This document shows, piece by piece, positions 7,742 through 39,032 of a stretch of 57,499 bases of DNA; the stretch's first letter is position 1; each line of letters starts with the position of its first letter. The notes under the pieces are model-generated. The model was not told the DNA's origin, did no database searches, and was given only the letters and a program-made list of their open reading frames with translations. The translations under genes and the position numbers were made by a program. Where the stretch lies: positions 31,786 to 89,284 of the forward strand of contig NZ_KE384164.1 of assembly GCF_000424325.1 (NCBI RefSeq), written 5' to 3'. This DNA is from [Clostridium] clostridioforme AGR2157 (GTDB taxonomy: Bacteria; Bacillota; Clostridia; Lachnospirales; Lachnospiraceae).

Positions 7742-7786
7742 GCGCGGACATCTAAAGTACAGATGTCAAGTGCTCATAACGAGGAG
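7742..7786 (+). promoter_or_regulatory. Leader element copy A (paired variable stem plus SD tail)
   Basis: GCGC (7742-7745) pairs with GTGC (7770-7773; one G-U). Inside, GACATCT (7747-7753) pairs with AGATGTC (7761-7767) around the 7-nt loop AAAGTAC. The tail TCATAACGAGGAG (7774-7786) contains the aspS Shine-Dalgarno sequence, and the ATG starts 21 nt after the stem. The same architecture occurs at 28785-28843 and 38958-39032. Function unknown. Confidence 0.7.
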
Positions 7787-7794
7787 AGAGTGCC

Positions 7795-9126
7795 ATGGAA
7801 TTTGTAAACGGAGTTAAGGAGAAGAGGGTCCTGGATATCAGGGAAGTGCTTGAAGGGGAATACGAGGGGAAGGAAATACGGATGAACGGGGCTGTTCATA
7901 CCATACGCCATATGGGCGAGGTGGCCTTCGTCATCCTGCGCAAGCCCCGGGGGCTGGTGCAGTGTGTATATGAGGCAGGGGTTACGGATTTTGACATCAG
8001 GGAATTGAAGGAAGAGAGCGCCGTGGAGGTGATGGGTGTTGTGAAGGCCGAGGAACGGGCGCCCCATGGCTTTGAGATACGCTTAAAGGCAATTCGGGTG
8101 CTGTCCCAGCCCGCAGAGCCCCTGCCCATTGCCATCAGCAAATGGAAGCTGAACACATCCCTGGAGACAAAGCTTTCCCTGCGCCCCATCTCCCTGCGCA
8201 ATGTGCGGGAGCGGGCCAAATTCAAGATTCAGGAAGGCATTGTAAGGGGATTTCGGGACTATCTTTTAAGCCAGGGCTTTACGGAGATACGCACGCCTAA
8301 AATCGTGGCGAGAGGGGCGGAGGGCGGCTCCAACGTATTTAAGCTGGAGTATTTTAATAAGAAGGCAGAGCTGGGACAGAGCCCGCAGTTTTACAAACAG
8401 ACCATGGTGGGCGTATATGACAGGGTGTTTGAGGCAGCGCCTGTGTTCCGGGCTGAAAAGCATAATACCACCCGGCATCTCAACGAATACACCAGCCTGG
8501 ATTTCGAGATGGGGTATATCGACAGCTTCCGGGATGTGATGGATATGGAGACGGGAATGCTCCGGTATGTCATGAAACTTCTGGAACAGGAGTATAAGAA
8601 GGAGCTGGATATGCTGGGAGTGACCCTGCCGGAGGTGGGAAGGATTCCTGCGGTCCGGTTTGACCAGGCAAAGGAGCTCGTTTCAAGAAAATATGACAGG
8701 AAGATACGCAATCCCTATGATTTGGAGCCGGAGGAGGAGCTGCTCATAGGACGGTATTTCCAGGAAGAGTATGGAAGCGATTTTGTGTTCGTCACACATT
8801 ACCCTTCCAAAAAACGGCCCTTCTACGCCATGGATGACCCGGCAGACCCCAAATTCACTCTGAGTTTTGACCTAATGTTTCGGGGGCTGGAGGTGACCAC
8901 CGGCGGACAGAGGATTCACGATTACAGGGAAATCACAGCCAAGATGGAGAAGCGGGGCATGGATCCTGAGGACATTGCTTCCTATCTTATGATTTTCAAA
9001 TACGGCATGCCGCCCCACGGCGGCCTGGGCATTGGACTGGAACGCCTTACCATGAGGCTCCTGGATGAACAGAATGTCAGGGAGGCATCATTGTTCCCAA
9101 GAGATGTGACCAGATTGGAGCCATAG
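7795..9126 (+). CDS. aspS: Aspartyl-tRNA synthetase, archaeal (non-discriminating) type
   Basis: A 443-residue class II synthetase with an N-terminal OB-fold anticodon-binding domain (about 15-105) and catalytic core. Motif 2 lies around FRAEKHNTTRHLNEYTSLDFEMGY and motif 3 is GLGIGLERLTMRL. It lacks the ~100-residue GAD insertion of ordinary bacterial AspRS, so it is the archaeal/eukaryal-type AspRS2. Such enzymes in bacteria are usually non-discriminating: they charge Asp onto both tRNA-Asp and tRNA-Asn. The gatC, gatA and gatB genes directly downstream supply the amidotransferase that converts Asp-tRNA-Asn to Asn-tRNA-Asn. Expression is controlled first by the T-box and perhaps by leader element A. 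Confidence 0.92.
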   Translation: MEFVNGVKEKRVLDIREVLEGEYEGKEIRMNGAVHTIRHMGEVAFVILRKPRGLVQCVYEAGVTDFDIRELKEESAVEVMGVVKAEERAPHGFEIRLKAIRVLSQPAEPLPIAISKWKLNTSLETKLSLRPISLRNVRERAKFKIQEGIVRGFRDYLLSQGFTEIRTPKIVARGAEGGSNVFKLEYFNKKAELGQSPQFYKQTMVGVYDRVFEAAPVFRAEKHNTTRHLNEYTSLDFEMGYIDSFRDVMDMETGMLRYVMKLLEQEYKKELDMLGVTLPEVGRIPAVRFDQAKELVSRKYDRKIRNPYDLEPEEELLIGRYFQEEYGSDFVFVTHYPSKKRPFYAMDDPADPKFTLSFDLMFRGLEVTTGGQRIHDYREITAKMEKRGMDPEDIASYLMIFKYGMPPHGGLGIGLERLTMRLLDEQNVREASLFPRDVTRLEP

Positions 9127-9159
9127 GGACGGGAAAATGACTGAGAGGAGCAGGAAATC

Positions 9160-9453
9160 ATGGCAAATATCATAAGTGACGAGACAATCGAGTATGTAGG
9201 CATCCTGGCAAAGCTGGAACTTTCCCCGGAGGAAAAGGAGGAAGCAAAGAAGGACATGGGAAGGATGCTGGATTATATAGATAAGTTAAATGAACTGGAC
9301 ACACAGGGAGTGGAGCCCATGTCCCACGTATTTCCGGTGAATAACGTGTTCCGGGAGGATGTGGTCACGGGCGTGGACCAGAGGGACCAAATTCTGTCCA
9401 ACGCCCCCCGGCAAAAGGACGGTGCATTCAAAGTGCCTAAGACCGTAGAGTAG
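9160..9453 (+). CDS. gatC: Asp/Glu-tRNA amidotransferase subunit C
   Basis: The 97-residue protein shows the GatC pattern: an N-terminal helix with [17 protein letters not shown], the helix [25 protein letters not shown], and the conserved NVFREDV segment with a PKTVE C-terminus. GatC is the small wrapper subunit that clamps GatA and GatB together. It lies 33 nt after aspS and 13 nt before gatA, second gene of the T-box operon. Length is normal. Confidence 0.95.
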
Positions 9454-9466
9454 GAGGAACGGGAAC

Positions 9467-10984
9467 ATGAGCATATTAGATATGACAGCCCTGGAGCTGG
9501 GAAAAAGGATTCAGTCAGGGGATATCACCGCGGTACAGGCCGCAGAAGCATCTCTGGCACGCATAAAGGCCATGGAGCCATCCATCCACGCCTATGTGAC
9601 CGTGAATGAAGAAAAGACCATGGAACAGGCCGGGAAGGTCCAGGCAGACATTGAGGCGGGAAGGCTTAGAGGCCCCCTGGCCGGAGTACCTGTGGCTATC
9701 AAGGACAACATGTGTACGGAAGGAATGCGGACCACCTGCAGTTCCAGGATACTGGGAAATTTCATCCCCACCTACACGGCCCAGGCAGTAGCCAATCTGG
9801 AGCAGGCAGGAGCCGTTATCCTGGGAAAGACAAACATGGACGAATTTGCCATGGGAAGCACCACGGAGACATCCGCCTTTGGCGTTACCAGGAATCCATG
9901 GAACCTGGAACATGCGCCGGGGGGCTCCTCCGGCGGTTCCTGCGCGGCAGTGGCTGCCGGGGAATGCTTTTATGCCCTGGGGTCTGATACGGGCGGTTCC
10001 ATACGACAGCCCAGCTCCTTCTGCGGCGTCACGGGCATCAAGCCCACCTACGGGACCGTGTCCAGGTATGGGCTCATTGCCTATGGTTCATCCCTGGACC
10101 AGATAGGGCCTGTGGCAAAGGACGTGTCGGACTGCGCCGCGGTCCTGGAGGTCCTGGCATCTCATGACCCCAAGGACAGCACATCCATGGAGCGAAAGGA
10201 CTGTGGTTTCACCTCAGCCCTGTCAGAGGATGTAAGAGGAATGCGCATCGGCATACCGGAATCCTACTTCGGACAGGGGCTGGACCAGGAGGTGAAGGAC
10301 GCTGCGCTGGAAGCAGCCAGGGTGCTGGGAGAAAAGGGGGCCATCGTGGAGACCTTTGACCTTAAGCTGGTGGAGTACGCCATACCTGCCTACTATGTCA
10401 TTGCTTCCGCAGAGGCCAGCTCCAACCTGTCCCGGTTTGACGGTGTAAAGTACGGCTACCGGGCGCCGGAATACGATGGGCTTCACAGCATGTACAAAAA
10501 GAGCCGTTCCCAGGGCTTCGGGCCGGAGGTGAAGCGCCGTATCATGCTGGGATCCTTTGTGCTGAGTTCCGGCTACTATGACGCATATTATCTGAAGGCC
10601 CTCCGCACCAAGGCCCTGATTAAGAAGGAATTTGACCGTGCGTTTGCGTCCTATGACGTCATACTGGCGCCGGCAGCGCCGGAAACAGCCCCACGGTTAG
10701 GCCAGTCCCTGGGGGATCCTCTGAAGATGTATCTGGGGGATATCTATACCATTTCCGTGAACCTGGCCGGTCTTCCCGGAATCAGCCTTCCCTGCGGCCT
10801 GGATTCAAAGGGACTTCCCATTGGACTGCAGCTCATAGGGGACTGTTTTAAGGAAAAAAACATCATACGGGCCGCCTATGCTTACGAGAAGGCGCGGGAG
10901 TGGAAGCTGCCGCCTGTGACTGCCGGGACGGCAGAGGCGCCGTCCGGCGTCATGGCCGGGGACAGAGAGGGGGATGAGCCATGA
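9467..10984 (+). CDS. gatA: Asp/Glu-tRNA amidotransferase subunit A
   Basis: A 505-residue amidase-signature enzyme, the glutaminase subunit of GatCAB. It releases ammonia from glutamine (or uses asparagine) and passes it to GatB. The Ser-cisSer-Lys triad is visible: Lys in VPVAIKDNMCTEG, the cis-Ser in APGGSSGGSCAAVAAG, and the nucleophilic Ser in GSDTGGSIRQPSSFCG. Length is slightly above average because of a C-terminal tail (about 485-505, rich in Gly, Ala and Glu). Its stop overlaps the gatB start by 4 nt, suggesting translational coupling. Confidence 0.96.
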   Translation: MSILDMTALELGKRIQSGDITAVQAAEASLARIKAMEPSIHAYVTVNEEKTMEQAGKVQADIEAGRLRGPLAGVPVAIKDNMCTEGMRTTCSSRILGNFIPTYTAQAVANLEQAGAVILGKTNMDEFAMGSTTETSAFGVTRNPWNLEHAPGGSSGGSCAAVAAGECFYALGSDTGGSIRQPSSFCGVTGIKPTYGTVSRYGLIAYGSSLDQIGPVAKDVSDCAAVLEVLASHDPKDSTSMERKDCGFTSALSEDVRGMRIGIPESYFGQGLDQEVKDAALEAARVLGEKGAIVETFDLKLVEYAIPAYYVIASAEASSNLSRFDGVKYGYRAPEYDGLHSMYKKSRSQGFGPEVKRRIMLGSFVLSSGYYDAYYLKALRTKALIKKEFDRAFASYDVILAPAAPETAPRLGQSLGDPLKMYLGDIYTISVNLAGLPGISLPCGLDSKGLPIGLQLIGDCFKEKNIIRAAYAYEKAREWKLPPVTAGTAEAPSGVMAGDREGDEP

Positions 10985-12429
10985 GTAAACAGTATGAGAC
11001 CGTCATCGGTCTGGAAGTCCATGTGGAGCTGGCCACCAAAACCAAGATTTTCTGCGGCTGTTCCACCCGGTTCGGGGGAGCGCCAAACACCCATACCTGC
11101 CCCGTATGCACCGGCATGCCGGGTTCCCTGCCCGTGTTAAATAAGCAGGTGGTGGAGTATGCGCTGGCAGTGGGACTGGCTGCAAACTGCCAGATTAACC
11201 AGTACTGTAAATTTGACAGAAAGAACTATTTTTATCCGGATAATCCGCAGAACTACCAGATATCCCAGCTGTACCTGCCTATATGCCACGACGGCTGGGT
11301 GGATATAGAGACGGAGTCCGGCCTTAAGAAACGTGTGGGAATCCATGAAATCCACATGGAGGAGGATGCGGGCAAGCTGATTCATGATGAGTGGGAGGAC
11401 TGTTCCCTGGTGGATTACAACCGCAGCGGAGTCCCGCTGATTGAAATTGTGTCGGAGCCTGACATGCGCAGTGCCGAGGAAGTCATAGCCTGCCTGGAGA
11501 AGCTGAGGCTGATAATCCAGTACCTGGGCGCCTCTGACTGCAAGCTTCAGGAAGGGTCCATGAGAGCGGACGTGAACCTGTCCGTGAGAGAGGCGGGGGC
11601 GGCTGAGTTTGGCACCAGGACCGAGATGAAGAACCTGAACTCCTTTAAGGCCATTGCCAGAGCCATAGAGGGGGAGCGCAGGCGTCAGATTGAGCTGCTG
11701 GAAGACGGCAGGAAGGTAATCCAGGAGACGCGGCGCTGGGACGACAACAAGGAGAGTTCCAAGGCCATGCGATCCAAGGAGGATGCCCAGGATTACAGGT
11801 ATTTCCCTGATCCGGATCTGGTGCCGGTGGTCATAAGCGATGAGTGGATTGCCCGGGTAAAGGCCCGCCAGCCGGAGCTGCGCACGGAGAAAATCGCCCG
11901 ATACAGGGAGGAATACGGGCTTCCTGAGTATGACGCCAGGCTTCTCACCGGTTCCAAGCACATGGCGGATATCTTTGAGGAGACCACGCGTTTGAGCGGC
12001 CGGCCCAAGGAGGCGTCCAACTGGCTCATGGTGGAGGCCATGCGCCTGATGAAGGAACAGGAAATGGAGCCTGAGGACATGAGGTTCTCCCCCTCCCATC
12101 TGGCTGCCCTTATCGGCATGGTGGAGAAAAACACCATCAACAGGACGGTCGCTAAAACCGTGTTTGAAGAGATATTCAAGCACGACGCGGACCCTGAGGC
12201 GTATGTGGAGGAAAAGGGCCTAAAGGTTGTAAAGGATGAGGGCGCCCTGCGCCGCACCGTGGAGGCGGTCATGGCTGCCAACCCGCAGTCCGTGGAGGAT
12301 TACAGGAACGGCAGGGAAAAGGCCATGGGATTCCTGGTGGGCCAGACCATGAAGGCCATGAAGGGCAAGGCGGACCCGGCCATGGTGAATCAGCTTGTGA
12401 GGGAGCTGCTTGCCGGCGGGGATGCATAA
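10981..12429 (+). CDS. gatB: Asp/Glu-tRNA amidotransferase subunit B
   Basis: The 482-residue GatB subunit phosphorylates the misacylated Asp- or Glu-tRNA side chain and transfers ammonia to it. Signature parts are the N-terminal YETVIGLEVHVELATKTKIF, zinc-type cysteines (CGCST near 20 and CPVC near 40), the cradle segment FDRKNYFYPDNPQNYQISQ, and the C-terminal YqeY-like tRNA-binding tail (NRTVAKTVFEEI...AMKGKADPAMVNQLVRELL). It begins in the gatA stop (ATGA overlap). With only one AspRS-GatCAB set visible, it probably makes Asn-tRNA and, if no GlnRS exists, Gln-tRNA too. Confidence 0.96.
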   Translation: MSKQYETVIGLEVHVELATKTKIFCGCSTRFGGAPNTHTCPVCTGMPGSLPVLNKQVVEYALAVGLAANCQINQYCKFDRKNYFYPDNPQNYQISQLYLPICHDGWVDIETESGLKKRVGIHEIHMEEDAGKLIHDEWEDCSLVDYNRSGVPLIEIVSEPDMRSAEEVIACLEKLRLIIQYLGASDCKLQEGSMRADVNLSVREAGAAEFGTRTEMKNLNSFKAIARAIEGERRRQIELLEDGRKVIQETRRWDDNKESSKAMRSKEDAQDYRYFPDPDLVPVVISDEWIARVKARQPELRTEKIARYREEYGLPEYDARLLTGSKHMADIFEETTRLSGRPKEASNWLMVEAMRLMKEQEMEPEDMRFSPSHLAALIGMVEKNTINRTVAKTVFEEIFKHDADPEAYVEEKGLKVVKDEGALRRTVEAVMAANPQSVEDYRNGREKAMGFLVGQTMKAMKGKADPAMVNQLVRELLAGGDA

Positions 12430-12508
12430 GATAAGATGTATAAGCTGTGATAGAGACAGATGGAAAAAGACATAAGCATATCTTTTGACAATATAAGAAA
12501 ATTTTGTA

Positions 12509-12537
12509 TTGACGGAATGCTTCAATTGGTGTATGCT
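12509..12537 (+). promoter_or_regulatory. Promoter of the class Ic aminotransferase gene
   Basis: TTGACG (12509-12514), 17 nt, TATGCT (12532-12537), about 95 nt before the ATG. A second -35-like TTGACA lies at 12485-12490. The long leader between -10 and ATG shows no clear structure. Confidence 0.45.
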
Positions 12538-12630
12538 TGTGTACAATGTACGAAAATGTTGACCGGTAGCTGACAGATGTATGCCTGACGGACACATTTT
12601 ATAGAAAATATAGTGAGCCAGGAGGATATT

Positions 12631-13920: not shown

Positions 13921-13988
13921 TTGGAGGGCAGATACCTTCCAAGGAAAATGATTCAAGTGTAAAAGTCAGCACTTCATCAGATAATGAT

Positions 13989-14026
13989 AGGGAGCGGCAC
14001 ATCGAAAGCAGATGTGCGCGCTCCCT
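13989..14026 (+). terminator. Intrinsic terminator-like hairpin
   Basis: AGGGAGCGGCACATC (13989-14003) pairs with GATGTGCGCGCTCCCT (14011-14026) with one bulged base and a 7-nt loop. Only a short T-rich stretch follows, so termination may be partial. Confidence 0.65.
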
Positions 14027-14109
14027 TCCTCATTGTCCCGGATATCCAGGCTGCAGGCGATCCGGGACAGATTTAAGAGCAGGGATCATCTGATAAAGGA
14101 GGCAGGACC

Positions 14110-14682
14110 ATGCAGGGCCGGAATGTACGGTTTAAAGGAAAATACGACCTCTTCACGATTTATCTGATTCCGGGCGTGACCATATTCCTGGCATCCTTTG
14201 ACAGCTGGACCGGTACCAACCTGTCTGTCCTGGGCAACCGGACCGGCAACAAGCTGCTGTTTGCAGTGTGGGGATTTGCCACCGGCATCTATTACTGTGT
14301 GTATGTCCGTTATCTTTTTCACATAGGAAGGTACAGGAATCCGGGAGGCAGGACACTCATGTATACAGCGGCAGCCTTTCTCCTCATGGCAGTTATGATT
14401 CCCTATATGCCGGAGGAATATCCCTTAAAGGCAGACCTCCATGTGCTGCTGGCATTTTTTTCGCCGGTGCTGCTGGCTGTCAGCATCATTGGTTTCCTCC
14501 GCTTCTTAAGCGCCCGTGACCGAATGCGCTTTCGCAGGGCATGGGGCATCCTGTGGATGATGGCAGCCTGTGCTGTCCTATTCCTCCTGGAAGCTGGCTT
14601 TATCACCAGTTTTCTGGAAATATTCATCATCACAGGACTGTGCGGGTATCTGCGCTATATGGAACAGCTTCTGGCAACGTGA
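14110..14682 (+). CDS. Predicted multi-spanning membrane protein of unknown family
   Basis: A 190-residue hydrophobic protein with about six likely membrane helices (near 15-32, 48-70, 82-100, 106-127, 140-160 and 162-180), separated by short basic loops such as RFLSARDRMRFRRAW. Positive charges cluster in alternating loops as expected for an inner-membrane protein. I do not recognise a family signature. The ATG follows an AAAGGAGG site by 8 nt, so translation is credible. It stands alone between two strong hairpins, and its stop codon is part of the downstream terminator. Regional context (aminotransferase upstream, convergent Fe-ADH downstream) gives no functional hint. Confidence 0.7.
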   Translation: MQGRNVRFKGKYDLFTIYLIPGVTIFLASFDSWTGTNLSVLGNRTGNKLLFAVWGFATGIYYCVYVRYLFHIGRYRNPGGRTLMYTAAAFLLMAVMIPYMPEEYPLKADLHVLLAFFSPVLLAVSIIGFLRFLSARDRMRFRRAWGILWMMAACAVLFLLEAGFITSFLEIFIITGLCGYLRYMEQLLAT

Positions 14683-21889: not shown

Positions 21890-21899
21890 TGGTTTTTTC

Positions 21900-27764: not shown

Positions 27765-28778
27765 TTACTTTGGATAGGCAGCGTTCAGACAACGCTCTGC
27801 CGCCTCTTTGGATATCAGGTTCACGGCTCTGGAATCATCCTTTTTGGTATAGTAGCCGGTACCATCCTCAGTGGGACTTCCAATCGCCAATGACAGGCCG
27901 CCGTCCGTATCTCCGCTTTCATAGGTCCAGGAAAGAGTCATAGTTGGATCAGACAGGCCATAGCTGCCCAATTCTTCATCGCTGGCCTTGTATGATACAC
28001 AGGACTGGAACGACAAACCGCTTATGGCATCCGCCAGATTATTAAGAGCGCCATTGTCATCCAGGCGGTTGGCCTCGTCCTCGGCAGAGTCCTTATACCA
28101 GGCTATATTGCCTGCGTCATCCACGGTCTTTTTACAGAACCGGCTGGTCTGCTCGTTCTTGGAAACAGTGATTTCCCGGATATCGGCGCCTGACACATGG
28201 GGAAGGGACTCTGTCTCGACAAAATCGTAAAGTCCCTTGGCAGCTGTCTCTGTAAGATAACTGCTGATGGTATAAATCTGACTGTCCCCTTCCATGGCTG
28301 CATAGTACTGGGCAGGGGTCTGGGAACCGTCCGAGCCTGAACCGCCGGTACCGGGAACCTGGCTGCCCAGCAGGATGGCGCGGGAGGAACCGTCAGAGGA
28401 AACGGTATCAAACCGCGCGGAAGGGTTATCCAGGCCATATGCTTCCGGAGAATCCGCACCTTCCAGCTTCCGCTCTGCTTTTAAGTGGGACAGGGTATCT
28501 GCCAGGGTGGTCAGGGGATATTGGCGGATGGGGCAATCCTTATCTCCTTTATAGTACCAGGTGTCGCCTTCCCGGGTAAAGGACAGACTCTTGTCATCCT
28601 TCGTCCAGGACAGGGAAGATAGTTCCGGAAGGTCGGTCATATATACAGAGGCATTTTCCGGAGACAGGGCCTGTGTTTTAGCATTCCTCTCCTGCTGCCA
28701 GTTGATGACGCCATATGCAGCGCAGAGAAGGACCAGGGCTCCCAGAGCGGGAACCATTGGCCGTACATGTTTCTTCAT
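27765..28778 (-). CDS. DUF4340-domain protein, last gene of a Gld-like ABC operon
   Basis: A 337-residue protein with one N-terminal membrane helix (about 7-25) and a large extracytoplasmic region. It has the repeated beta-rich pattern of DUF4340 (ELSSLSWTKDDKSLSFTREGDTWYYKGDKDCPIRQYPLTTLADTLSHL; YGLDNPSARFDT; YGLSDPTMTLSW). DUF4340 proteins regularly follow GldG-type genes; their role is unknown. The ATG at 28776-28778 follows AGGAGG. The longer reading from 28802 would translate leader element B, which overlaps this ribosome site. It is the fourth gene after the ATPase, permease and GldG-like genes. Confidence 0.8.
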   Translation of the reverse strand: MKKHVRPMVPALGALVLLCAAYGVINWQQERNAKTQALSPENASVYMTDLPELSSLSWTKDDKSLSFTREGDTWYYKGDKDCPIRQYPLTTLADTLSHLKAERKLEGADSPEAYGLDNPSARFDTVSSDGSSRAILLGSQVPGTGGSGSDGSQTPAQYYAAMEGDSQIYTISSYLTETAAKGLYDFVETESLPHVSGADIREITVSKNEQTSRFCKKTVDDAGNIAWYKDSAEDEANRLDDNGALNNLADAISGLSFQSCVSYKASDEELGSYGLSDPTMTLSWTYESGDTDGGLSLAIGSPTEDGTGYYTKKDDSRAVNLISKEAAERCLNAAYPK

Positions 28779-28784
28779 GTCTAA

Positions 28785-28843
28785 CCTCCTCGTTATGAGC
28801 ACTTAGTGACCGTACTTAGGTCACTTACGTGCGATACATGTCA
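28785..28843 (-). promoter_or_regulatory. Leader element copy B (paired variable stem plus SD tail)
   Basis: On the minus strand: conserved TGACATGTATCGCACGTAAG (shared exactly with copy C), in which GCAC (28829-28832) pairs with GTGC (28799-28802). Inside, AGTGACC pairs with GGTCACT (28819-28825 with 28805-28811) around the loop TAAGTAC. The tail TCATAACGAGGAGG holds the Shine-Dalgarno sequence, and the ATG begins 20 nt after the stem. It lies between the GldG-like and DUF4340 genes. Confidence 0.7.
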
Positions 28844-28850
28844 ACGTGTT

Positions 28851-30242
28851 TTAGAGCTTCCGGCGCTTCAGCCAGATCACGAAGCCTGCAATCAGGAAAA
28901 TGACCGGAATCACGATAATGAACAGCGCGCTCCACAGTCCGGCGGATGTTACCATATTATAGGTAATATCCAGGCTTTTGCTGGGGATGGACAGCGGTGT
29001 GACTCCAGGCAGTCCGTTGGTCGCGGCGTTCATGAACAAAGTCAGGTTGGTGATGCTGGGGAAACGTGACAGAATGGAATCATCAATCATGCTTGGCGCC
29101 GTGATAACGGTAAGCATGGAGGATGAGCCCTCTTCCTCGTTTACAGTCTCCGTGGCCACAGCTCCCAGCACATAAGAGCCCTGCGTCTTCTCCTGTGTGA
29201 CAGGATCCACCAGAAATGCGGAATCAGAGGTGGTAAGGAAGGGCTGGACCGCAATGTCCTCCGAAGGATTTTCCTGTATGGTCATTCCGGCAGGCTGGAC
29301 CAGAAGGGCTGCCGCGGAGGAGTCGATTCCTGAGAGAAGGCTGCTGGCAAAGTCGTAATCCGGAATAACATTAAAGGGATTATTGTTGTAGAAATGCTGG
29401 GGAGCCGGGTCAGCCACAAATCCATTTTTCAGGTCCATTCCGTACTGGGAAATGAATTCAGTCAGATTGGCCAGGGTATTCTGGGTACAGCCTGCAAGGA
29501 GCAACATGCGGCCGCCGTTTTTCAGGTAATCGGTCAGAGTTTCCTTTTCATCCACGGAAATATCCTTGGCAGGGGCGTTCATGATGAGAAGGCTGCAGTC
29601 CTGGGGAATGGCTCCCTGGGTGAGCAGATTCAGTTCGGTCACATTTATGCCGGATTTATCCATGGCATCTGCCGCGGCTGACGAGAGGGCGGCTTCGCCG
29701 TGTCCGGTCAGGGTATATACGGCAGCAGCCGTATCGCTTGTGACATAGCGGACGGCGCTGGTAATCTGTCCTTCACCGTCAAAGGCTGTTTCCTTGATTT
29801 GCCCGTACTGGTAGTAAACCATGGGGTCAAACTGGATGATATCGTCAAATGAAACGGAAGTCTTTTTTCCGGTGGACTCACAGGATACAATCAGGTTTCC
29901 GGGTTCTGTGTCCAGGGAGGTAAGTACGTCCGGGTGAAGCACTGGGTCATTGGCTTCCACCGAAATATGTGGGGAAAGGTCTTTATACAGATTTACAAAG
30001 GATGTAATCCTTTCATCCACGGAGTTGGGGTCAGCCACGATGTGGATGGTAACGTCTCTGTCCAGCTGCGCGAGGATGTCCCTGGTTGTATCCCCCAGGG
30101 TAAGGATTTTGTTGGAACTTAAGTCGTGTTTCAGGTATTTGGCAGGAAGCTTTCCCACTATCAGGTTGAGTACAATGACAGCGGCAATGACCACAAGGGT
30201 GAACAGTGCCATATAGCTGCCTTTTTTAAATTTTCTGGTCAT
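28851..30242 (-). CDS. GldG-like ABC-transporter auxiliary protein
   Basis: A protein of about 463 residues with an N-terminal membrane helix (about 10-32), an extracytoplasmic domain of the ABC_transp_aux/GldG type, and a C-terminal membrane helix followed by WLKRRKL. Features include KYLKHDLSSNKILTLGDTTRDIL, the DFASSLLSGIDSSAAALLVQPAG middle, and the membrane-anchor end LFIIVIPVIFLIAGFVIWLKRRK. GldG is named for gliding motility in Bacteroidetes, but homologues here accompany ABC-2 exporters of unknown cargo. I prefer the ATG at 30242 after GGAG; the ATG at 30257 has a poor site. It overlaps nothing but starts 5 nt after the permease stop. Confidence 0.78.
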   Translation of the reverse strand: MTRKFKKGSYMALFTLVVIAAVIVLNLIVGKLPAKYLKHDLSSNKILTLGDTTRDILAQLDRDVTIHIVADPNSVDERITSFVNLYKDLSPHISVEANDPVLHPDVLTSLDTEPGNLIVSCESTGKKTSVSFDDIIQFDPMVYYQYGQIKETAFDGEGQITSAVRYVTSDTAAAVYTLTGHGEAALSSAAADAMDKSGINVTELNLLTQGAIPQDCSLLIMNAPAKDISVDEKETLTDYLKNGGRMLLLAGCTQNTLANLTEFISQYGMDLKNGFVADPAPQHFYNNNPFNVIPDYDFASSLLSGIDSSAAALLVQPAGMTIQENPSEDIAVQPFLTTSDSAFLVDPVTQEKTQGSYVLGAVATETVNEEEGSSSMLTVITAPSMIDDSILSRFPSITNLTLFMNAATNGLPGVTPLSIPSKSLDITYNMVTSAGLWSALFIIVIPVIFLIAGFVIWLKRRKL

Positions 30243-30247
30243 ATGAT

Positions 30248-31114
30248 TCAACTCCATCTTCTTTTCTCGATTGACTGAACAGTCAGGAACAGCAATATAC
30301 CGGCCACACTCAGATAATAGACAAGACCGCTGACATCCAGCATATGGCTGCTGACAATGCCGTCAAATACGTCTGTCAGGACGATTTTTCCCAGAAGTCC
30401 GGTCAGGGCCCGTTCAAACATGCTCTGCTTCACGAAAAAGGTTCCTATAAGGACTGCTGCCCCGGCTGCTTCCAGTCCAAGGGAAAGGGGAATATGGCCG
30501 GTCAGCCGGTACATGATAAAACACACAAGGGTCCACAGAATGAGGAAACCGGCCAGCGAACCCGCTGCGGTAGCCGGTATAAAGTTTAAAAGCCCTGGCC
30601 AGAGGATGCTGAGCAGCAGTACGCCGAAGGTCCCTGCCGCGGCTATGAGCTGGCTTTCCGTAAGGGAGGAGATGAAAAGCCCAATGGCAATATAGACACA
30701 TCCCAAAAGGAAGAAGGCCAGTATGGATGCATAGTCCTCTGTCAGGTAAGCGGTCCCGGCGCTTCGGATGATGAGGGGACAGAGGCAGGCAGTGGCCATG
30801 GGGACAGCGAAAATAGTGACCATGGAAAGAAATTTTCCCATAACAATACCCCATACGGATACGGGGGAGGTCAGCAGCAGCTGGTCAGTCCGTGCTCTGT
30901 GTTCGTCCGACATGCTCCGCATAGTCAGAATCGGCACCGCAATCATAAGTATCATCAGGATGGAATTAAGTGTATAGGAAAAATAGGGGTAACCGTTAAT
31001 CATATTGTAGACCATGAAATAAATGCCCATGAACATTGTCATGAAAGCAATAAAAACATAGCCTGTCATGGAGCAGAAATAGGATTTCAGCTCCCGCTTA
31101 TAGATAGCTCTCAT
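30248..31114 (-). CDS. ABC-2 type permease (GldF-like)
   Basis: A 288-residue integral membrane protein with six predicted helices. It has the ABC-2 permease arrangement (AIYKRELKSYFCSMTGYVFIAFMTMFMGIYFMVYN; MSDEHRARTDQLLLTSPVSVWGIVMGKFLSM), where the cytoplasmic EHRARTDQLLLTSP loop contacts the ATPase. This is the GldF/NosY-like subgroup. Its start overlaps the ATPase stop by 4 nt, so the two are translationally coupled. With the GldG-like and DUF4340 partners it would form an exporter or a membrane-remodelling complex; the substrate is unknown. Confidence 0.85.
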   Translation of the reverse strand: MRAIYKRELKSYFCSMTGYVFIAFMTMFMGIYFMVYNMINGYPYFSYTLNSILMILMIAVPILTMRSMSDEHRARTDQLLLTSPVSVWGIVMGKFLSMVTIFAVPMATACLCPLIIRSAGTAYLTEDYASILAFFLLGCVYIAIGLFISSLTESQLIAAAGTFGVLLLSILWPGLLNFIPATAAGSLAGFLILWTLVCFIMYRLTGHIPLSLGLEAAGAAVLIGTFFVKQSMFERALTGLLGKIVLTDVFDGIVSSHMLDVSGLVYYLSVAGILLFLTVQSIEKRRWS

Positions 31115-32340: not shown

Positions 32341-32363
32341 ACTGATTTTTGCGAGAAAAAGTA

Positions 32364-32464: not shown

Positions 32465-34447
32465 ATGAATCAGATTGATACCATGTCAGTCAATGCAATC
32501 CGTGTTCTGGCAGCAGATGCTGTACAGAAAGCCAAATCAGGCCACCCAGGTCTTCCTTTGGGAGCCGCGGCCATGTCCTTTGAGCTGTGGGCAAAACATA
32601 TGAACCATAATCCTAAGAATCCAGGATGGGAGAACAGGGACCGTTTCATCCTTTCAGGAGGCCATGGCTCCACACTGCTGTATTCCCTGCTTCATCTTTT
32701 CGGCTACGGCCTTACAAAAGAGGATATGATGAATTTCCGTCAGATGGATTCCCTGACACCGGGACATCCGGAGTATGGCCATACAGTAGGCGTTGAGGCC
32801 ACCACAGGTCCGCTGGGCGCAGGCATGGGCATGGCAGTTGGCATGGCTATGGCAGAGTCCCATCTGGCAGCCGTGTTCAACAAGGGCGGATATCCTGTTG
32901 TTGACCATTATACCTACGTGCTGGGCGGCGACGGCTGTATGATGGAGGGCATTTCCTCCGAGGCATTCTCACTGGCAGGTACCCTGGGGCTGGGCAAGCT
33001 TATTGTATTTTATGATTCTAACCGTATTTCCATCGAGGGAAGCACGGATATCGCATTTACAGAGAACGTACAGAAGCGCATGGAAGCCTTCGGATTCCAG
33101 CTGATTACCGTTGAGGACGGCAATGACCTGGATGCCATCGGCAAGGCCATCGAGGAGGCAAAGGCGGATACCACACGTCCATCCTTCATCACCGTAAAGA
33201 CCCAGATTGGCTACGGCTGTCCCGCAAAGCAGGGCAAGGCCAGCGCTCACGGCGAGCCCTTGGGGGATGACAATGTAAAAGCCATGAAGGAATTCCTGAA
33301 CTGGCCGTCCATGGAGCCCTTCTATGTACCGGATGAGGTATATGCCAATTATAAGGCATACGCCGAGAGAGGCGCCGAGGCAGAGGAAAAGTGGAACGCA
33401 TTATTTGCAGAATACTGCGGGAAATACCCGGAGATGAAGGAATTATGGGATAAATTCTATAATCCGAATCTGGCTAATGATATTTATGACAGTGAAGACT
33501 ACTGGGCATTTGAGGACAAGCCGGATGCTACCAGAAGTCTGTCAGGCAGGCAGCTTCAGAAGCTTAAGAACCTGATGCCGAATCTGATTGGAGGAGCGGC
33601 AGACCTGGCTCCGTCTACCAAGACCTACATGACTGATATGGGCGATTTCTCCAAGGAAAACTATGCCGGACGCAACCTGCATTTTGGCGTCCGCGAGCTG
33701 GCCATGTCCGCCATTGGAAATGGTCTCATGCTTCACGGGGGCCTGCGGGCATTCGTGTCCACCTTCTTTGTGTTCAGTGATTATACAAAGCCAATGGCAA
33801 GGCTGTCCGCTCTTATGGGCGTGCCTCTTACCTTTGTATTTACCCATGACAGCATCGGCGTGGGAGAGGACGGACCTACCCATGAGCCCATTGAGCAGCT
33901 GGCTATGCTGCGCGCCATGCCTAACTTCCATGTATACCGCCCGGCGGATGCCACGGAGACAGCAGCTGCATGGTACAGCGCCGTATCTTCCAAAAAGACT
34001 CCTACGGCTCTGGTACTCACAAGGCAGAACCTGCCGCAGCTGGCTGGTTCCAGCAGGGAGGCATTAAAGGGAGCCTACATCCTGGAAGATTCCGCGAAGG
34101 AAGTTCCGGATGCCATCATCATTGCCACTGGTTCCGAGGTGGAGCTGGCAGTGGGTGCAAAGGCTGAGCTGGCAAAAGAGGGCGTGGATGTGCGCGTTGT
34201 CAGCATGCCGAGCATGGACGTGTTCGAGGAACAGACTGAGGATTACAAGGAGAAGGTCCTTCCAAAGGCAGTGCGTAAGAGAGTGGCAGTAGAGGCACTG
34301 GGCGATTTCGGATGGGGCAGATATGTGGGCCTTGACGGTACCACCGTCACCATGAAGGGCTTTGGCGCCAGCGCACCAGCGGGACAGCTCTTTAAGAAAT
34401 TCGGATTTACGGTTGAGAACGTTGTGGCAGCCGTGAAGTCACTGTAG
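32465..34447 (+). CDS. tkt: Transketolase
   Basis: A 660-residue full-length thiamine-diphosphate transketolase of the non-oxidative pentose phosphate pathway. It has the N-terminal AKSGHPGLPLGAA, the TPP motif GGDGCMMEGISSEA through IVFYDSNRISIEG, and GYGCPAKQGKASAHGEPLG. The central pyrimidine domain has RNLHFGVRELAMSAIGNG (catalytic Glu) and VFTHDSIGVGEDGPTHEPIEQL. The C-terminal domain is complete (GFGASAPAGQLFKKFGFT). The ATG at 32465 follows GGAGGG by 4 nt and matches the usual N-terminus; an ORF opening at 32429 would translate the leader hairpin. It is monocistronic, with its own promoter and terminator. Confidence 0.96.
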   Translation: MNQIDTMSVNAIRVLAADAVQKAKSGHPGLPLGAAAMSFELWAKHMNHNPKNPGWENRDRFILSGGHGSTLLYSLLHLFGYGLTKEDMMNFRQMDSLTPGHPEYGHTVGVEATTGPLGAGMGMAVGMAMAESHLAAVFNKGGYPVVDHYTYVLGGDGCMMEGISSEAFSLAGTLGLGKLIVFYDSNRISIEGSTDIAFTENVQKRMEAFGFQLITVEDGNDLDAIGKAIEEAKADTTRPSFITVKTQIGYGCPAKQGKASAHGEPLGDDNVKAMKEFLNWPSMEPFYVPDEVYANYKAYAERGAEAEEKWNALFAEYCGKYPEMKELWDKFYNPNLANDIYDSEDYWAFEDKPDATRSLSGRQLQKLKNLMPNLIGGAADLAPSTKTYMTDMGDFSKENYAGRNLHFGVRELAMSAIGNGLMLHGGLRAFVSTFFVFSDYTKPMARLSALMGVPLTFVFTHDSIGVGEDGPTHEPIEQLAMLRAMPNFHVYRPADATETAAAWYSAVSSKKTPTALVLTRQNLPQLAGSSREALKGAYILEDSAKEVPDAIIIATGSEVELAVGAKAELAKEGVDVRVVSMPSMDVFEEQTEDYKEKVLPKAVRKRVAVEALGDFGWGRYVGLDGTTVTMKGFGASAPAGQLFKKFGFTVENVVAAVKSL

Positions 34448-34482
34448 ACATAAATAGCTGCAGCTCAATGGCAGTTTAAAAC

Positions 34483-34518
34483 GGACCCATGAAGATTAGG
34501 CTGCTTCTTCATGGGTCC
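34483..34518. terminator. Intrinsic terminator between tkt and argG
   Basis: A perfect 13-bp inverted repeat (34483-34495 with 34506-34518, 10-nt loop) followed by a short T stretch. It lies between convergent tkt and argG. Confidence 0.85.
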
Positions 34519-34568
34519 TTTCCAATGTGCGGAAAATGCGGTATTTACCGTTTCAGTTCCCCGCCTCT

Positions 34569-35801
34569 TTACTGACCCTTCTTGGCAGATTCTACCTCAG
34601 CCATCTTCATAGCCCTTACCTTAAGGGGAAGTCCGAACAGGGTGATGAAACCGTCTGCGTCATGGTGGTCGTACAGGTCGCCTGTGGTGAAGGAAGCCAG
34701 GGACTCGCTGTATAAGGAGTATGGGGATGTGGTTCCGGCCTTGATGATATTGCCCTTGTACAGTTTGAATTTCACTTCGCCTGTCACATATTCCTGGGTG
34801 GACTCTACAAATGCCTGGACAGCCTCGCGCAGTGGGGTAAACCACTTGCCCTCATAAACAATCTGGGCCAACTTATCAGCCATGGTCTTTTTGGTCTCCA
34901 TGGTGGCCCGGTCTAATACCAGTTCCTCCAGCTGCTTATGGGCTTCCATGAGAATGGTTCCGCCTGGTGTCTCATACACGCCCCGGGACTTCATGCCTAC
35001 CACGCGGTTTTCCACGATGTCCACAATGCCGATGCCATGTTTTCCGCCCAGCTCATTTAACTTGCGGATAATATCGGAAACCTTCATCTTCTGGCCGTTT
35101 ACGCTGGTGGGAACGCCTTTTTCAAAGGTCATGGTCACATACTCGCCTTCGTCCGGCGCCTTTTCAGGAGTCACGCCAAGTACAAGCAGGTGCTCGTAGT
35201 TTGGTTCCTGTGACGGATCTTCTAACTCCAGGCCCTCGTGGCTGATATGCCATAAGTTCCTGTCACGGCTGTAGCTGCTGTCCGCGGAGAAGGGCAGGTC
35301 AATGCCGTGCTGCTTGCAGTATTCAATCTCGTCCTCGCGGGACTGCATGGTCCATACATCGGTCATACGCCAGGGAGCGATGATTTTGATATCAGGAGCC
35401 AGGGCCTTGATGCCCAGCTCAAAACGAATCTGGTCATTGCCCTTGCCGGTAGCGCCGTGGCAGATGGCTGAGGCGCCTTCCTTACGTGCAATCTCAACCA
35501 GTCTCTTGGCAATGGCAGGACGGGCCATGGAGGTGCCTAAGAGGTATTTGTTTTCATATACTGCATTGGCCTTTACACAGGGCATGATGTAATTGTCGCA
35601 GAAATCATCCACTAAATCTTCAATATATAATTTGGAAGCACCGGATAATTTGGCTCTCTCGTCCAGGCCGTCTAATTCACTGCCCTGGCCGCAGTCGATG
35701 CAGCAGCAGATGACTTCATAACCAAAATGCTCCTTTAGCCACGGAATGATTGCGGTGGTATCCAGTCCGCCGGAATAAGCTAAAACTACTTTTTCTTTCA
35801 T
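34569..35801 (-). CDS. argG: Argininosuccinate synthase
   Basis: A 410-residue ATP-dependent ligase joining citrulline and aspartate. The N-type ATP pyrophosphatase loop is [16 protein letters not shown]. Other family blocks are [64 protein letters not shown] and the [26 protein letters not shown] end. The start is the ATG at 35799-35801 after AGGAGG, matching [12 protein letters not shown]; a longer frame to 35843 has no ribosome site. It is transcribed alone from a good promoter (35845-35873) and shares a 248-bp control region with divergent argC. Confidence 0.97.
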
Positions 35802-35844
35802 ATTAATATCCTCCTGAGATTGCTGTACTGATTGAACTTTCATA

Positions 35845-35873
35845 AATATACAACATTATGTGATAAAATGCAA
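35845..35873 (-). promoter_or_regulatory. Promoter of argG
   Basis: On the minus strand TTGCAT (35868-35873), 17 nt, TATATT (35845-35850), about 45 nt before the argG ATG. Confidence 0.65.
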
Positions 35874-35902
35874 GTGCTAAATAAAAATTTTTAAAAAGAT
35901 GT

Positions 35903-35936
35903 TGCATATTATGCATTTATAATGTATAATTATGAA
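35903..35936. promoter_or_regulatory. Candidate pair of ArgR boxes between argG and argC
   Basis: A perfect dyad TGCATA-t-TATGCA (35903-35915) and an imperfect relative TGTATAATTATGAA (35923-35936) have centres about 20-21 bp apart, two helical turns. ArgR hexamers bind paired AT-rich boxes with that spacing. The site lies about 30 bp upstream of the argG -35, so control might be by looping or by a further site. Sequence match only. Confidence 0.5.
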
Positions 35937-35978
35937 ATCTGAAAAGGGACCGGGAAATAAGGGTCATGAAAATGCTTC

Positions 35979-36007
35979 TTTTCATTAAAAGAAAAACTGA
36001 CTATAAT
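35979..36007 (+). promoter_or_regulatory. Promoter of the argC operon
   Basis: TTTTCA (35979-35984), 17 nt, TATAAT (36002-36007). The -10 is perfect and the -35 is weak, which fits a regulated promoter. Confidence 0.55.
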
Positions 36008-36049
36008 GAAGGCAGCAGCCAATATTTATAAATATAAGGAGATACGGAT

Positions 36050-37090
36050 ATGATTAAGGCAGGTATTATCGGTTCCACAGGATATGCGGGAGGAGAGCTG
36101 GCAAGGCTCCTGCTCCAGAGGGATGACATAGAGATTAAATGGTATGGTTCCAGAAGCTACATAGACCAGAAATATGCATCCATCTACCAGAACATGTTCC
36201 GGATTGTGGACGACGCGTGTATGGATGATAATATGAAGGAGCTGGCAGACCAGGTGGACGTGGTGTTCACCGCAACCCCTCAGGGCCTGTGCGCATCCCT
36301 GGTGGACGAGGACGTGTTGTCTAAGGTAAAGGTCATTGATTTAAGCGCTGACTTCCGTATTAAGGATGTGTCGGTTTATGAGAAATGGTATAAGCTGACC
36401 CATGCATCTGCGCAGTTCATCGGTGAAACCGTGTATGGGCTGCCTGAAATCAACCGGGAAAAGGTGAAGAAGGCCAGGCTCATTGCCAATCCGGGATGTT
36501 TCCCCACCTGCTCCTTCCTGTCCACGTATCCTCTGGTAAAGGAAGGGCTCATTGACCCCAATACCATCATCATCGATGCCAAGTCCGGCACATCCGGCGC
36601 AGGCAGGGGAAGCAAGGTGGACAGTCTGTACTGCGAGGTCAATGAGAACATTAAGGCTTACGGAGTGGCCTCCCACAGACATACGCCGGAGATAGAGGAG
36701 CAGCTGTCCTATGCGGCAGGAAAGCCGGTAACCATCAGCTTCACCCCTCACCTGGTACCAATGAACCGCGGAATCCTGGTGACGGCCTATGCCTCCCTTA
36801 CAAAGGAAGTGTCCTACGAGGAGGTAAAGGCTGTATACGACAAATATTATGCGGACGAATATTTTGTACGCGTCCTGGAAAAGGATGTGGTGCCCCAGAC
36901 CCGGTGGGTGGAGGGCAGCAATTTTGCAGACGTGAATTTTAAGATAGACACCAGAACCAACCGGGTGGTGATGATGGGAGCCATTGACAACATGGTCAAG
37001 GGAGCAGCAGGCCAGGCCATCCAGAACATGAACCTGATGTTCGGTCTGCCGGAGAATACGGGACTGAAGCAGATTCCTATTTTCCCCTGA
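36050..37090 (+). CDS. argC: N-acetyl-gamma-glutamyl-phosphate reductase
   Basis: A 346-residue NADPH enzyme for the third step of arginine synthesis. The Rossmann start KAGIIGSTGYAGGELARLL binds NADPH. The catalytic cysteine lies in ARLIANPGCFPTCSFL, with KSGTSGAGRGSK and HRHTPEIEEQL as further family blocks; His in FTPHLVPMNRGIL completes the active site. Length fits the long (type 1) subfamily. The ATG follows AAGGAG. It is the first gene of argC-GNAT-argJ-argB-argD. Confidence 0.96.
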   Translation: MIKAGIIGSTGYAGGELARLLLQRDDIEIKWYGSRSYIDQKYASIYQNMFRIVDDACMDDNMKELADQVDVVFTATPQGLCASLVDEDVLSKVKVIDLSADFRIKDVSVYEKWYKLTHASAQFIGETVYGLPEINREKVKKARLIANPGCFPTCSFLSTYPLVKEGLIDPNTIIIDAKSGTSGAGRGSKVDSLYCEVNENIKAYGVASHRHTPEIEEQLSYAAGKPVTISFTPHLVPMNRGILVTAYASLTKEVSYEEVKAVYDKYYADEYFVRVLEKDVVPQTRWVEGSNFADVNFKIDTRTNRVVMMGAIDNMVKGAAGQAIQNMNLMFGLPENTGLKQIPIFP

Positions 37091-37160
37091 TGGTTCAGGC
37101 TGTTGGTTTAGAGACGCTCTGAAAGGATAAAAGAGGGAAAAAGAAAGGAAACATGAGCTC

Positions 37161-37625
37161 ATGGCAGGTACGATGGATATCCTTATCCGTGAAATGACAA
37201 TAGCGGATTACGACCAGGTTTACGACCTGTGGACAGAAATCAAGGGATTTGGAATCAGAAGCATTGACGATTCCCGGGAGGGAGTGGTGCGCTTCCTCAG
37301 GAGGAATCCCACTACCAGTGTGGTGGCTGTCCAGTACGGTCATATTATAGGGAACATCCTCTGCGGCCATGACGGCAGGACCGGCTGCTTTTACCACGTG
37401 TGCGTGGCGCCGGGATACAGGAAACACGGCATCGGATACCGCATGGTCCGCTTTGCCATGGAGGCCCTGCAGAAAGAAGGAGTCAGCAAAATCAGCCTGA
37501 TTGCGTTTAAGGAGAATGAGGTGGGAAATGCGTTCTGGCAGGGAATCGGATGGCGGGAACGGGAGGATGTGAATACATACGAATTCATATTGAATGAGGA
37601 AAACATCACCCGGTTTGTACGGTAA
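37161..37625 (+). CDS. GNAT N-acetyltransferase embedded in the arginine cluster
   Basis: A 154-residue single-domain GNAT protein. The acetyl-CoA loop is VAPGYRKHGIGYRMVRFAMEAL; strand beta-4 is TGCFYHVCVAP, and the C-terminal AFWQGIGWREREDVNTYEF is typical. It lies between argC (70 nt upstream) and argJ (84 nt downstream). GNAT proteins of this size acetylate many amines, but the location raises the possibility of a short N-acetylglutamate synthase that starts the pathway when ArgJ cannot. ArgJ here looks bifunctional, so it could instead be a regulator or an unrelated acetylase. Function is inferred from context only. Confidence 0.8.
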   Translation: MAGTMDILIREMTIADYDQVYDLWTEIKGFGIRSIDDSREGVVRFLRRNPTTSVVAVQYGHIIGNILCGHDGRTGCFYHVCVAPGYRKHGIGYRMVRFAMEALQKEGVSKISLIAFKENEVGNAFWQGIGWREREDVNTYEFILNEENITRFVR

Positions 37626-37709
37626 AATGAAACGGAGTGCACCGTGACAAGGGGCCGGTGCATCTCCATATGACATAAAGGTATGGAAATAAATGGAGGA
37701 ACGAGAGAT

Positions 37710-38954
37710 ATGGATGAGTCAGGCAAGGGAATCAAAATCATAACCGGCGGCGTTACGGCTGCCAAGGGCTTTAAGGCTGCTTCCACGGCAGCCGGAATCA
37801 AATATAAGGACCGTCAGGACATGGCCATGATTTACAGTCAGGAGCCCTGCAGGTCAGCAGGCACCTTCACCACCAATATCGTGAAGGCAGCTCCCGTAAA
37901 ATGGGATAAGAACCAGGTGACAAGCGGGGCGCCTGCCCAGGCAGTGGTTATAAACGCAGGAATTGCCAATGCCTGTACCGGGGAAGAAGGCATGGGATAC
38001 TGCGCACAGACGGCCGAGGCAGCTGCCCAGGCCCTGGGAATTCCCGCTGAAAGCGTCCTGGTGGCATCCACAGGCGTCATCGGCATGCAGCTGCCCATGG
38101 ACAGGATTACGGCGGGGGTTAAGGCTATGGCTCCTCTGCTGGGCGAAAGCCTGGAGAGCGGCACCGGCGCCTCCAAGGCCATTATGACCACGGACACAAA
38201 GAACAAGGAGGTGGCTGTCCAATTTGAGCTGGGAGGAACCACTGTGACCATGGGCGGCATGTGCAAGGGTTCCGGCATGATTCATCCCAATATGTGCACC
38301 ATGCTGAGCTTTGTGACCACGGATGCGGCCATCAGCAGGGAGCTGCTCCAGGAAGCCCTCAGCCAGGATATCCAGGATACATACAACATGATTTCCGTGG
38401 ATGGGGACACATCCACCAATGATACGGTCCTCCTTCTGGCAAACGGTCTGGCCGGCAACAAAGAAATCACAGAGAAGGATGAGGATTACCATACCTTCTG
38501 CCGGGCCTTAAAGATTGTAAATGAAACATTAGCCAAAAAAATGGCAGGCGACGGCGAGGGCTGTACCGCGCTGTTTGAGGTGAAGGTAGTGGGAGCAGAG
38601 ACAAAGGAACAGGCCAAGGTTCTGGCGAAGTCGGTAATCTGTTCCAGCCTTACCAAGGCAGCCATCTTCGGCCACGACGCCAACTGGGGCAGGATACTCT
38701 GTGCCATGGGTTATTCAGGGGCACAGTTTGATCCGGAAAAGGTGGACCTGTATTTTGAGAGCGCGGCAGGGAAGATGCAGATCATTAAGGACGGCGTGGC
38801 CGCGGACTACAGCGAGGAACAGGCCACTCAGATTCTGTCAGAGTCTGAGGTGACGGCTGTGGCTGACATCAAGATGGGGGATGAGAAGGCCACTGCGTGG
38901 GGCTGCGACCTGACCTTTGATTATGTTAAGATTAATGCGGATTACCGTTCATAA
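37710..38954 (+). CDS. argJ: Glutamate N-acetyltransferase/ornithine acetyltransferase
   Basis: A 414-residue ArgJ that moves acetyl groups from N-acetylornithine to glutamate, recycling them in the pathway. It is made as one chain and cleaves itself before the nucleophilic Thr in KAIMTTDTKNKEVAV. Other family segments are GGVTAAKGFKAASTAAGIKYKDR, VVINAGIANACTGEEG, ESVLVASTGVIGMQLPMD, GGMCKGSGMIHPNMCTMLSF, and FGHDANWGRILCAMGY near the C-terminus. The ATG at 37710 follows GGAGG by 10 nt; the upstream ATG at 37683 is within the leader. It precedes argB, with leader element C in the 86-nt gap. Confidence 0.95.
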   Translation: MDESGKGIKIITGGVTAAKGFKAASTAAGIKYKDRQDMAMIYSQEPCRSAGTFTTNIVKAAPVKWDKNQVTSGAPAQAVVINAGIANACTGEEGMGYCAQTAEAAAQALGIPAESVLVASTGVIGMQLPMDRITAGVKAMAPLLGESLESGTGASKAIMTTDTKNKEVAVQFELGGTTVTMGGMCKGSGMIHPNMCTMLSFVTTDAAISRELLQEALSQDIQDTYNMISVDGDTSTNDTVLLLANGLAGNKEITEKDEDYHTFCRALKIVNETLAKKMAGDGEGCTALFEVKVVGAETKEQAKVLAKSVICSSLTKAAIFGHDANWGRILCAMGYSGAQFDPEKVDLYFESAAGKMQIIKDGVAADYSEEQATQILSESEVTAVADIKMGDEKATAWGCDLTFDYVKINADYRS

Positions 38955-38957
38955 TAT

Positions 38958-39032
38958 GGGCGCCAAGTGCCAGTGACATGTATCGCACGTAAGCGCCCAA
39001 AAGACGGGCGCCAAGTGCTCATAACGAGAGGA
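38958..39032 (+). promoter_or_regulatory. Leader element copy C, with a competing upstream strand
   Basis: Central strand GCAC-gtaa-GCGCCC (38985-38998) pairs with GGGCGC-caa-GTGC (39006-39018) around the loop AAAAGAC. The tail TCATAACGAGAGGAG carries the argB Shine-Dalgarno sequence, and the ATG begins 22 nt after the stem. An identical strand, GGGCGCCAAGTGC, also sits upstream (38958-38970) and could pair with the same central strand, so two exclusive folds are possible. Copy C shares 20 identical nt with copy B (about 38973-38992). Confidence 0.7.

Follow-up and report, generated by a model that had tools for sequence, protein, structure and literature searches.

Short structured repeats before ribosome sites and tRNA genes in Lachnospiraceae: a probable BOX-like family

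Most knowledge of small interspersed repeats comes from Proteobacteria, streptococci, and mycobacteria. The MIRU repeats of mycobacteria are tandem units located between operon genes, where they vary in copy number and carry overlapping start and stop codons. REP sequences are short palindromic repeats, also found in arrays, for which mobility via single-stranded hairpins has been proposed (PMC3733652). The BOX repeats of Streptococcus pneumoniae are small, modular, and intergenic, with an internal module in variable tandem number and predicted RNA stem-loops; effects on neighboring genes are reported and the repeats are thought to be parasitic mobile elements (PMC3049150). Here we describe a repeat noticed in three copies, upstream of aspS, a DUF4340 gene, and argB, in a 57,499-nucleotide stretch of [Clostridium] clostridioforme AGR2157 (contig NZ_KE384164.1, positions 31,786 to 89,284; the whole stretch is hereafter called the window). 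The repeat resembles BOX in its many dispersed intergenic copies, tandem modular units, and presence or absence between relatives, a likeness of kind that involves no comparison of sequences. It differs from BOX in that its stems are compensated between copies, its arrays end beside ribosome sites and tRNA 5' ends, and its hosts are Lachnospiraceae.

We consider the repeat to be a short, structured, non-autonomous dispersed family of Lachnospiraceae, BOX-like and probably mobile, whose copies become the leader of the gene behind them, and assign this reading a probability of about 0.58. The analysis documents dispersal, differences in tandem copy number, presence or absence at an orthologous site, and compensation within the stems, together with preferred junctions: ribosome sites, tRNA 5' ends, one 23S rRNA 5' end, and terminator-like hairpins. 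The dispersed-repeat reading fits best because tandem number varies, relatives differ in whether one orthologous site carries the repeat, and the downstream genes are unrelated. The repeat may have been kept in tRNA operons for a function at the RNA level.

The 16-mer AAGTGCTCATAACGAG occurs 9 times in the 4.94-Mb genome of the strain itself (G000, genus inferred to be Enterocloster; the window lies in its contig C17) compared with 0 for a reversed control, and a pattern of 19 bases, allowing at most 3 mismatches, occurs 21 times compared with once in the control. A covariance model built from 33 copies, the three window copies included, has 24 matches in this genome at E ≤ 1, and 16 of 17 genomes of the genus carry matches at E ≤ 0.1 (0 to 49 each across the 17, 326 summed). 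The exact 16-mer was found in 9 of 98 genomes including the strain's own, namely 8 of the 17 genus members and G053, where the match was judged by eye to be without the hairpin. At E ≤ 0.001, 69 of 397 sampled Lachnospiraceae genomes matched, a lower bound due to stricter filters and the scoring of 13 candidates per genome. The outcomes that the initial annotation named as refuting its proposal were not observed: further copies precede start codons, and most of them are paired. Among 291 genomes drawn from the class, five matched, G000 included, and all five belong to Lachnospiraceae. Carriers, as seen in 74 stretches from a pattern search, include Hungatella, Mediterraneibacter, Dorea, and Faecalicatena, and the Lachnospiraceae carriers are gut-associated. 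The exact pattern was absent from viral_contigs (0 stretches; weaker patterns were not tried there), and a phage origin was rejected on that exact pattern.

The unit consists of hairpin B, ATGYATC, hairpin A, and a TCATAAC tail, either singly or in tandem arrays with a period of approximately 95 bp. Across 164 arrays of the short version, 106 have one unit, 49 have two, 8 have three, and 1 has four. Hairpin B usually precedes hairpin A; its outer stem varies and terminates in the A.A mismatch that is also found in hairpin A. The structure of the latter was counted in 198 distinct copies of exactly 61 nt, ungapped, from 310 N-free matches, the remainder being the same copy in overlapping loci or copies of other lengths. 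The outer stem of hairpin A comprises GCAC/GUGC, a bulged G (185 of 198), a U-A pair, an A.A mismatch (191 of 198), and an A-U pair, and lower pairs GUAU/AUAAC are formed in most copies. The 4-bp outer stem of the initial annotation is thus present as part of a longer stem that includes the U-A, A-U, and lower pairs, and its “purine-rich internal loop” is instead the bulged G plus the single A.A mismatch. The second lower pair covaries (U-A in 150 copies, C-G in 33), yet is C.A in 9.

The inner stem of 6 bp has 41 different 5' arms among the 198 copies and closes a 7-nt loop of AAARNAC type, with A at position 32 in 196 copies and C at position 33 in 191. Inner stems had been described as always fully paired, which holds for the three window copies but not for all 198, since the loop-closing pair is C.A in 9. 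A.C occurs in 22 copies at the weaker pair 20-40 and in 6 copies at pair 18-42. The ten strongest pairs of hairpin A contain 1877 Watson-Crick, 47 G.U, 24 A.C, and 32 other cells, and all 16 pairs contain 68 G.U and 70 A.C cells (summed from pair counts), which gives no indication of the strand under selection. The excess of 47 over 24 exists only with six pairs omitted, and the strand test was dropped as evidence, which slightly lowered the standing of the RNA-module readings discussed below. An integron attC site was also considered. The R boxes of attC are ordered RYYYAAC...GTTRRRY; by inspection, the pairing ends of the repeat (GTAT...ATAAC) show the opposite box order, and this candidate was rejected.

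Selection on the folded structure of the hairpins, which the initial annotation had proposed from three unrelated stems, is supported for both hairpins by statistics that ignore kinship. The covariation alignment retained 33 of 37 rows, after removal of L021 (cut on the wrong side), L038 (Ns), and L015 and L020 (an indel and divergent 5' part). Over 12 pairs in these 33 copies, 94.9% of cells are paired, and the covariation score of 0.410, compared with 0.162 ± 0.014 after shuffling, was reached by 0 of 500 shuffles. Six pairs changed on both sides, compared with 3.9 when shuffled (9 of 500 shuffles reach 6); further pair types were not above shuffles (16 vs. 17.6, with 472 of 500 reaching 16). 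In a pattern-only sample of 69 distinct matches, where the search pattern fixed the flanks and left both arms free, 53 matches are fully paired at the five free positions; 5000 shuffles averaged 11.4 and never exceeded 22. When each arm combination was counted once, 23 of 35 are fully paired (shuffled mean 4.7, maximum 14). For hairpin B, 124 of 133 units have a pairing score ≥ 6 vs. 35% after arm exchange, a test that omitted the 69 of 202 upstream stretches not showing the B pattern. The spacer between tRNA-Met and tRNA-Asp holds seven inner-stem versions over 16 records, and all inner pairs (columns 21-26/34-39) are standard, with G.U intermediates counted as such.

In the window, the model confirms copies at all three places reported by the initial annotation. 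The third is preceded by part of another unit:

7728..7788, + strand: copy 1, a divergent hairpin A without hairpin B (covariance model 54.2 bits)
28784..28844, - strand: copy 2, a canonical hairpin A with 5' TGACATGTATC (85.1 bits)
38958..38972, + strand: GGGCGCCAAGTGCCA at the argJ-argB junction, the 3' half of a hairpin left from a preceding module
38973..39033, + strand: copy 3, a canonical hairpin A (80.5 bits)

Copy 1 has the outer arm GCGC, inner stem GACATCT/AGATGTC, loop AAAGTAC, tail TCATAAC at 7774-7780, and ribosome site GAGGAGAG, followed by the start codon of aspS (aspartate--tRNA(Asn) ligase) at 7795; UAA is missing from its 5' strand. Copy 2 has the inner stem AGTGACC/GGTCACT, loop TAAGTAC, tail TCATAAC, and GAGGAGG, with the ATG of the DUF4340 gene at 28778. 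Copy 3 combines the inner stem GCGCCC/GGGCGC, loop AAAAGAC, tail TCATAAC, and GAGAGGAG before the ATG of argB (acetylglutamate kinase) at 39041. Further upstream, TGACATGTATCGCACGTAAG is common to copies 2 and 3. The free-energy z-scores of the three copies are modest (-1.46, -2.30, and -2.17), the main support coming from the covariation, and the 10-nt tail is unremarkable in the window alone, as 37 of 100 shuffles give at least three matches at one mismatch.

The argJ-argB junction differs between relatives. Among 14 genomes, two units are present in G015 and G011, one in G000, and none in nine, while G004 and G012 carry nothing more than the hairpin's 3' half and the tail (L244 and L245 at this junction were not caught by the regular expression). 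The ArgB proteins of G004, G012, and G015 are 99% identical to that of the window. Gain and loss are not distinguished by these 14 genomes.

The genes behind the repeat have little in common. At 20 of 20 loci in the strain's own genome (24 matches, less one upstream tandem partner and three weak matches), a start codon follows 12-18 nt past the tail on the sense strand, with ATG preferred over other starts. The 17 downstream proteins scanned from these 20 loci, with some matches below curated cut-offs, show no evident common pathway. They include rhamnulokinase, two [FeFe] hydrogenases, argB, clpP, two ABC ATPases, an ECF transporter component, aspS, murD, oxaloacetate decarboxylase alpha, a short-chain dehydrogenase, a YqeY-like protein, DUF378, and the DUF4340 gene. 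In relatives, copies also lie before what we take, from its first residues only, to be adenylate kinase.

The wider context analyses rest on script-made gene calls rather than real annotation. Among 70 terminal arrays from the pattern sample, 48 have a ribosome site with a start codon 8-22 nt on, 15 a tRNA 5' end, and 7 neither; the last include inner copies before N runs (L094 and L126) and the long version (L145 and L146). The strict ribosome-site test was passed by 65 of 6900 random positions, coding ones included, and the search pattern ends in NAG, which could slightly favor ribosome sites. In the wider set of 164 short-version arrays, an open reading frame (ORF) starts 3-30 nt on in 107 and a tRNA starts in 22, compared with 14 ORF starts and 0 tRNA starts in an outward upstream control. 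The loose ORF-start test was passed by 936 of 3260 random positions, and a stricter control was therefore made.

The spacing of 12-18 nt to start codons in the own genome would suit a cis-acting translational switch or riboswitch-like leader of a regulon, as the initial annotation had also considered, and in single-sequence folds of the three window copies, each has parts of its ribosome-site or start region paired; the aspS copy favors pairing of its outer arm with a GUGC adjoining the start codon. However, the alternative pairings differ among the three copies, and the candidate pairing between the B apex (CCUCG) and the tail (CGAGG) shows no covariation, with a score of 449 vs. 450.0 ± 4.5 after shuffling (n = 133). 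Because this pairing lacks covariation and many copies precede sequences that are not translated (tRNAs, terminators, and one 23S rRNA), and with no visible pathway shared by the downstream genes, we regard a switch as improbable.

A tRNA starts within 12 nt of 22 arrays, in 21 of them 1-2 nt behind TCATAAC, and one copy lies between 5S and 23S rRNA genes, immediately before 23S, in an operon of the order 16S-5S-23S (L214, 1501-1574, - strand). Such placement, the survival of pairing through stem changes over the 16 tRNA-spacer records, and the fixed letters of bulge, mismatch, and loop are what would be expected of a module within transcripts, whose hairpin pair is the target of an RNA-binding protein or of a cleaving RNase and separates or protects the following tRNA, 23S rRNA, or cistron. 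Its copies would have spread secondarily and been kept for a host function. This is the most serious of the alternatives, yet a rather unlikely one: argB is without the repeat in 9 of 14 genomes, and two others carry a half hairpin unable to fold as a module. A short Met-Asp spacer without the element also occurs in 18 of 150 sampled genomes, the other 132 being unclassified, and the 68 G.U against 70 A.C cells give no strand bias. Slightly less likely still is the more specific proposal of a portable two-hairpin RNA module, recognized in RNA by a dedicated protein or nuclease through the bulged G, A.A mismatch, and AAARNAC loop, and set exactly before functional RNA starts such as tRNA 5' ends, the 23S 5' end, and ribosome sites. 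If true, the module would flag or establish boundaries of transcript processing throughout Lachnospiraceae, or might even insert via an RNA step at these 5' ends.

Junctions of another kind, with copies of one subclade lying beside terminator-like hairpins, also speak against an RNA module. In loci from G001, G003, G006, G013, and G016, an A-run lies directly past the tail in 12 of 20 cases (none from G006; L304 and L307 have a common flank and are not independent). Most of the 12 show a terminator-like hairpin by eye, and in 8 the closest ORF upstream runs on the other strand. Two copies (L291 and L306) are antisense to T-box leaders, also by eye. Thus, the orientation of the repeat to transcription is not absolute.

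Longer dispersed versions of the element occur in G334, G387, G445, and JAAWCJ. In G334, six loci (L216-L219, L221, and L222) are 87-99% identical over about 205-240 bp, L202 and L220 represent a shorter variant, and in 7 of 9 cases an ATG follows 18-24 nt beyond the end of the long version enclosing the core. The G445 long version shows 90% identity over 340 bp. Several loci (L228 and L229 at approximately 1310-1655; L145, L146, L215, and L223-L225) contain 240-350-bp repeats enclosing B and A, with long imperfect outer stems whose sequence varies from copy to copy while pairing is kept, and with a third hairpin in some; these may be the full-length form of the element. Terminal inverted repeats are found in long versions and not in short units. 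A conserved part of the long version, TTTTGCTGCGCCGCC, has 3 matches in 2 of 116 genomes searched (G000 and G080). At L276 (G011, C4 427159-427756), two pairs of copies recur 442 bp apart with identical scores, which suggests a recent larger duplication.

A candidate enzyme for mobility was sought among Y1 transposases. The genus has 51 matches, 21 of them in G000 and 15 in G004, many of those in G000 being fragments at contig ends. These numbers, and the tandem alternating hairpins with a bulge, recall REP/BIME-type palindromes mobilised by a Y1 (RAYT-like) transposase. On the other side, the hairpin has GCAC/GTGC or GTATC at its foot, as seen by inspection of alignments, with GTAAG inside the stem and no GTAG tag, and a search of 30 Y1 loci (approximately 1.5 kb on each side), confined to this transposase class, revealed no convincing copy, the best having E 0.72. 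With copies also plentiful in G013 and G016 (22 and 16), where no Y1 transposase was detected, this explanation appears very unlikely, and Y1/RAYT mobilisation was rejected on the 30 of 51 matches taken as loci. Compared with REP (PMC3733652), the unit has neither a GTAG nor a CGTC terminal tag, comprises two distinct hairpins, and shows no RAYT association at those 30 loci.

The same Y1 results weigh against the mobile-repeat reading itself, as do several other observations. No insertion event was directly seen, and loss could account for part of the argB pattern. The flanks of the long versions, whose boundaries are uncertain, contain no obvious target-site duplication. The structure of the tRNA-Met/Asp spacer is kept across several genera, including G359 and G370 with one copy detected each under strict filters; conservation even in such single-copy genomes argues for retention by selection there and against a purely parasitic reading. 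The missing and half copies before argB, in turn, argue against a needed function. Overall, the interpretation in the initial annotation is partly supported. Among its three suggestions, that of a dispersed repeat donating a ribosome site agrees best with the findings, and a site for a protein or enzyme may also apply.

In line with the initial annotation, which knew of no riboswitch or leader class of this shape, Rfam scans returned no family on the repeat in the window or in the loci of 16 relatives, and a known RNA family was rejected on this basis. Compared with MIRU, the repeat is a structured leader with its own tail and is found in tRNA and rRNA contexts as well. Set beside miniature inverted-repeat transposable elements (as defined in PMC3049150), the long versions in G445, G387, and JAAWCJ are similar in their inverted end arms and repeated copies, whereas the short units lack terminal inverted repeats and the long arms pair despite their differences from copy to copy. 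The literature consulted, passages of PMC8040213 and PMC8632094 included, yielded no description of a Lachnospiraceae repeat of this sort, and an unnamed entry in the supplementary lists of PMC8040213 is possible. Small structured interspersed repeats are thus a known kind of element, while this family and its choice of junctions were not found described.

Several features of the window surround the copies without belonging to the repeat. The aspS copy sits between the terminator of a T-box and the start codon, and the DUF4340 gene (PF14238) comes after an ABC_transp_aux/DUF7088 gene (27765-30257 on the - strand for the two together), a pair reminiscent of a gliding-type ABC system. A purine riboswitch (RF00167, 59.1 bits) at 48046-48141 on the + strand is unrelated to the repeat. 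The T-box is as follows:

7352..7645, + strand: T-box leader lying before the aspS copy, outside the repeat (RF00230, 61.5 bits, E 7e-13, short of the gathering score, 93)

Under the dispersed-repeat reading, the unit may be moved or copied by a putative enzyme that reads the single-stranded hairpin shape together with the bulge, mismatch, and loop. Recognition of this kind would leave the stem letters free to drift, provided that pairing stays. Insertions at purine-rich junctions would survive by leaving the ribosome site or tRNA intact, and the next gene could then use the inserted copy as an ordinary and probably constitutive 5' leader. In the Lachnospiraceae, a structured repeat supplies the immediate leaders of unrelated genes, such as aspS, argB, clpP, murD, and those of hydrogenases, as well as spacers in tRNA operons. 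With different stems at one site, and none, half, one, or two units before argB, its effects on translation, processing, and mobility are open to direct testing.

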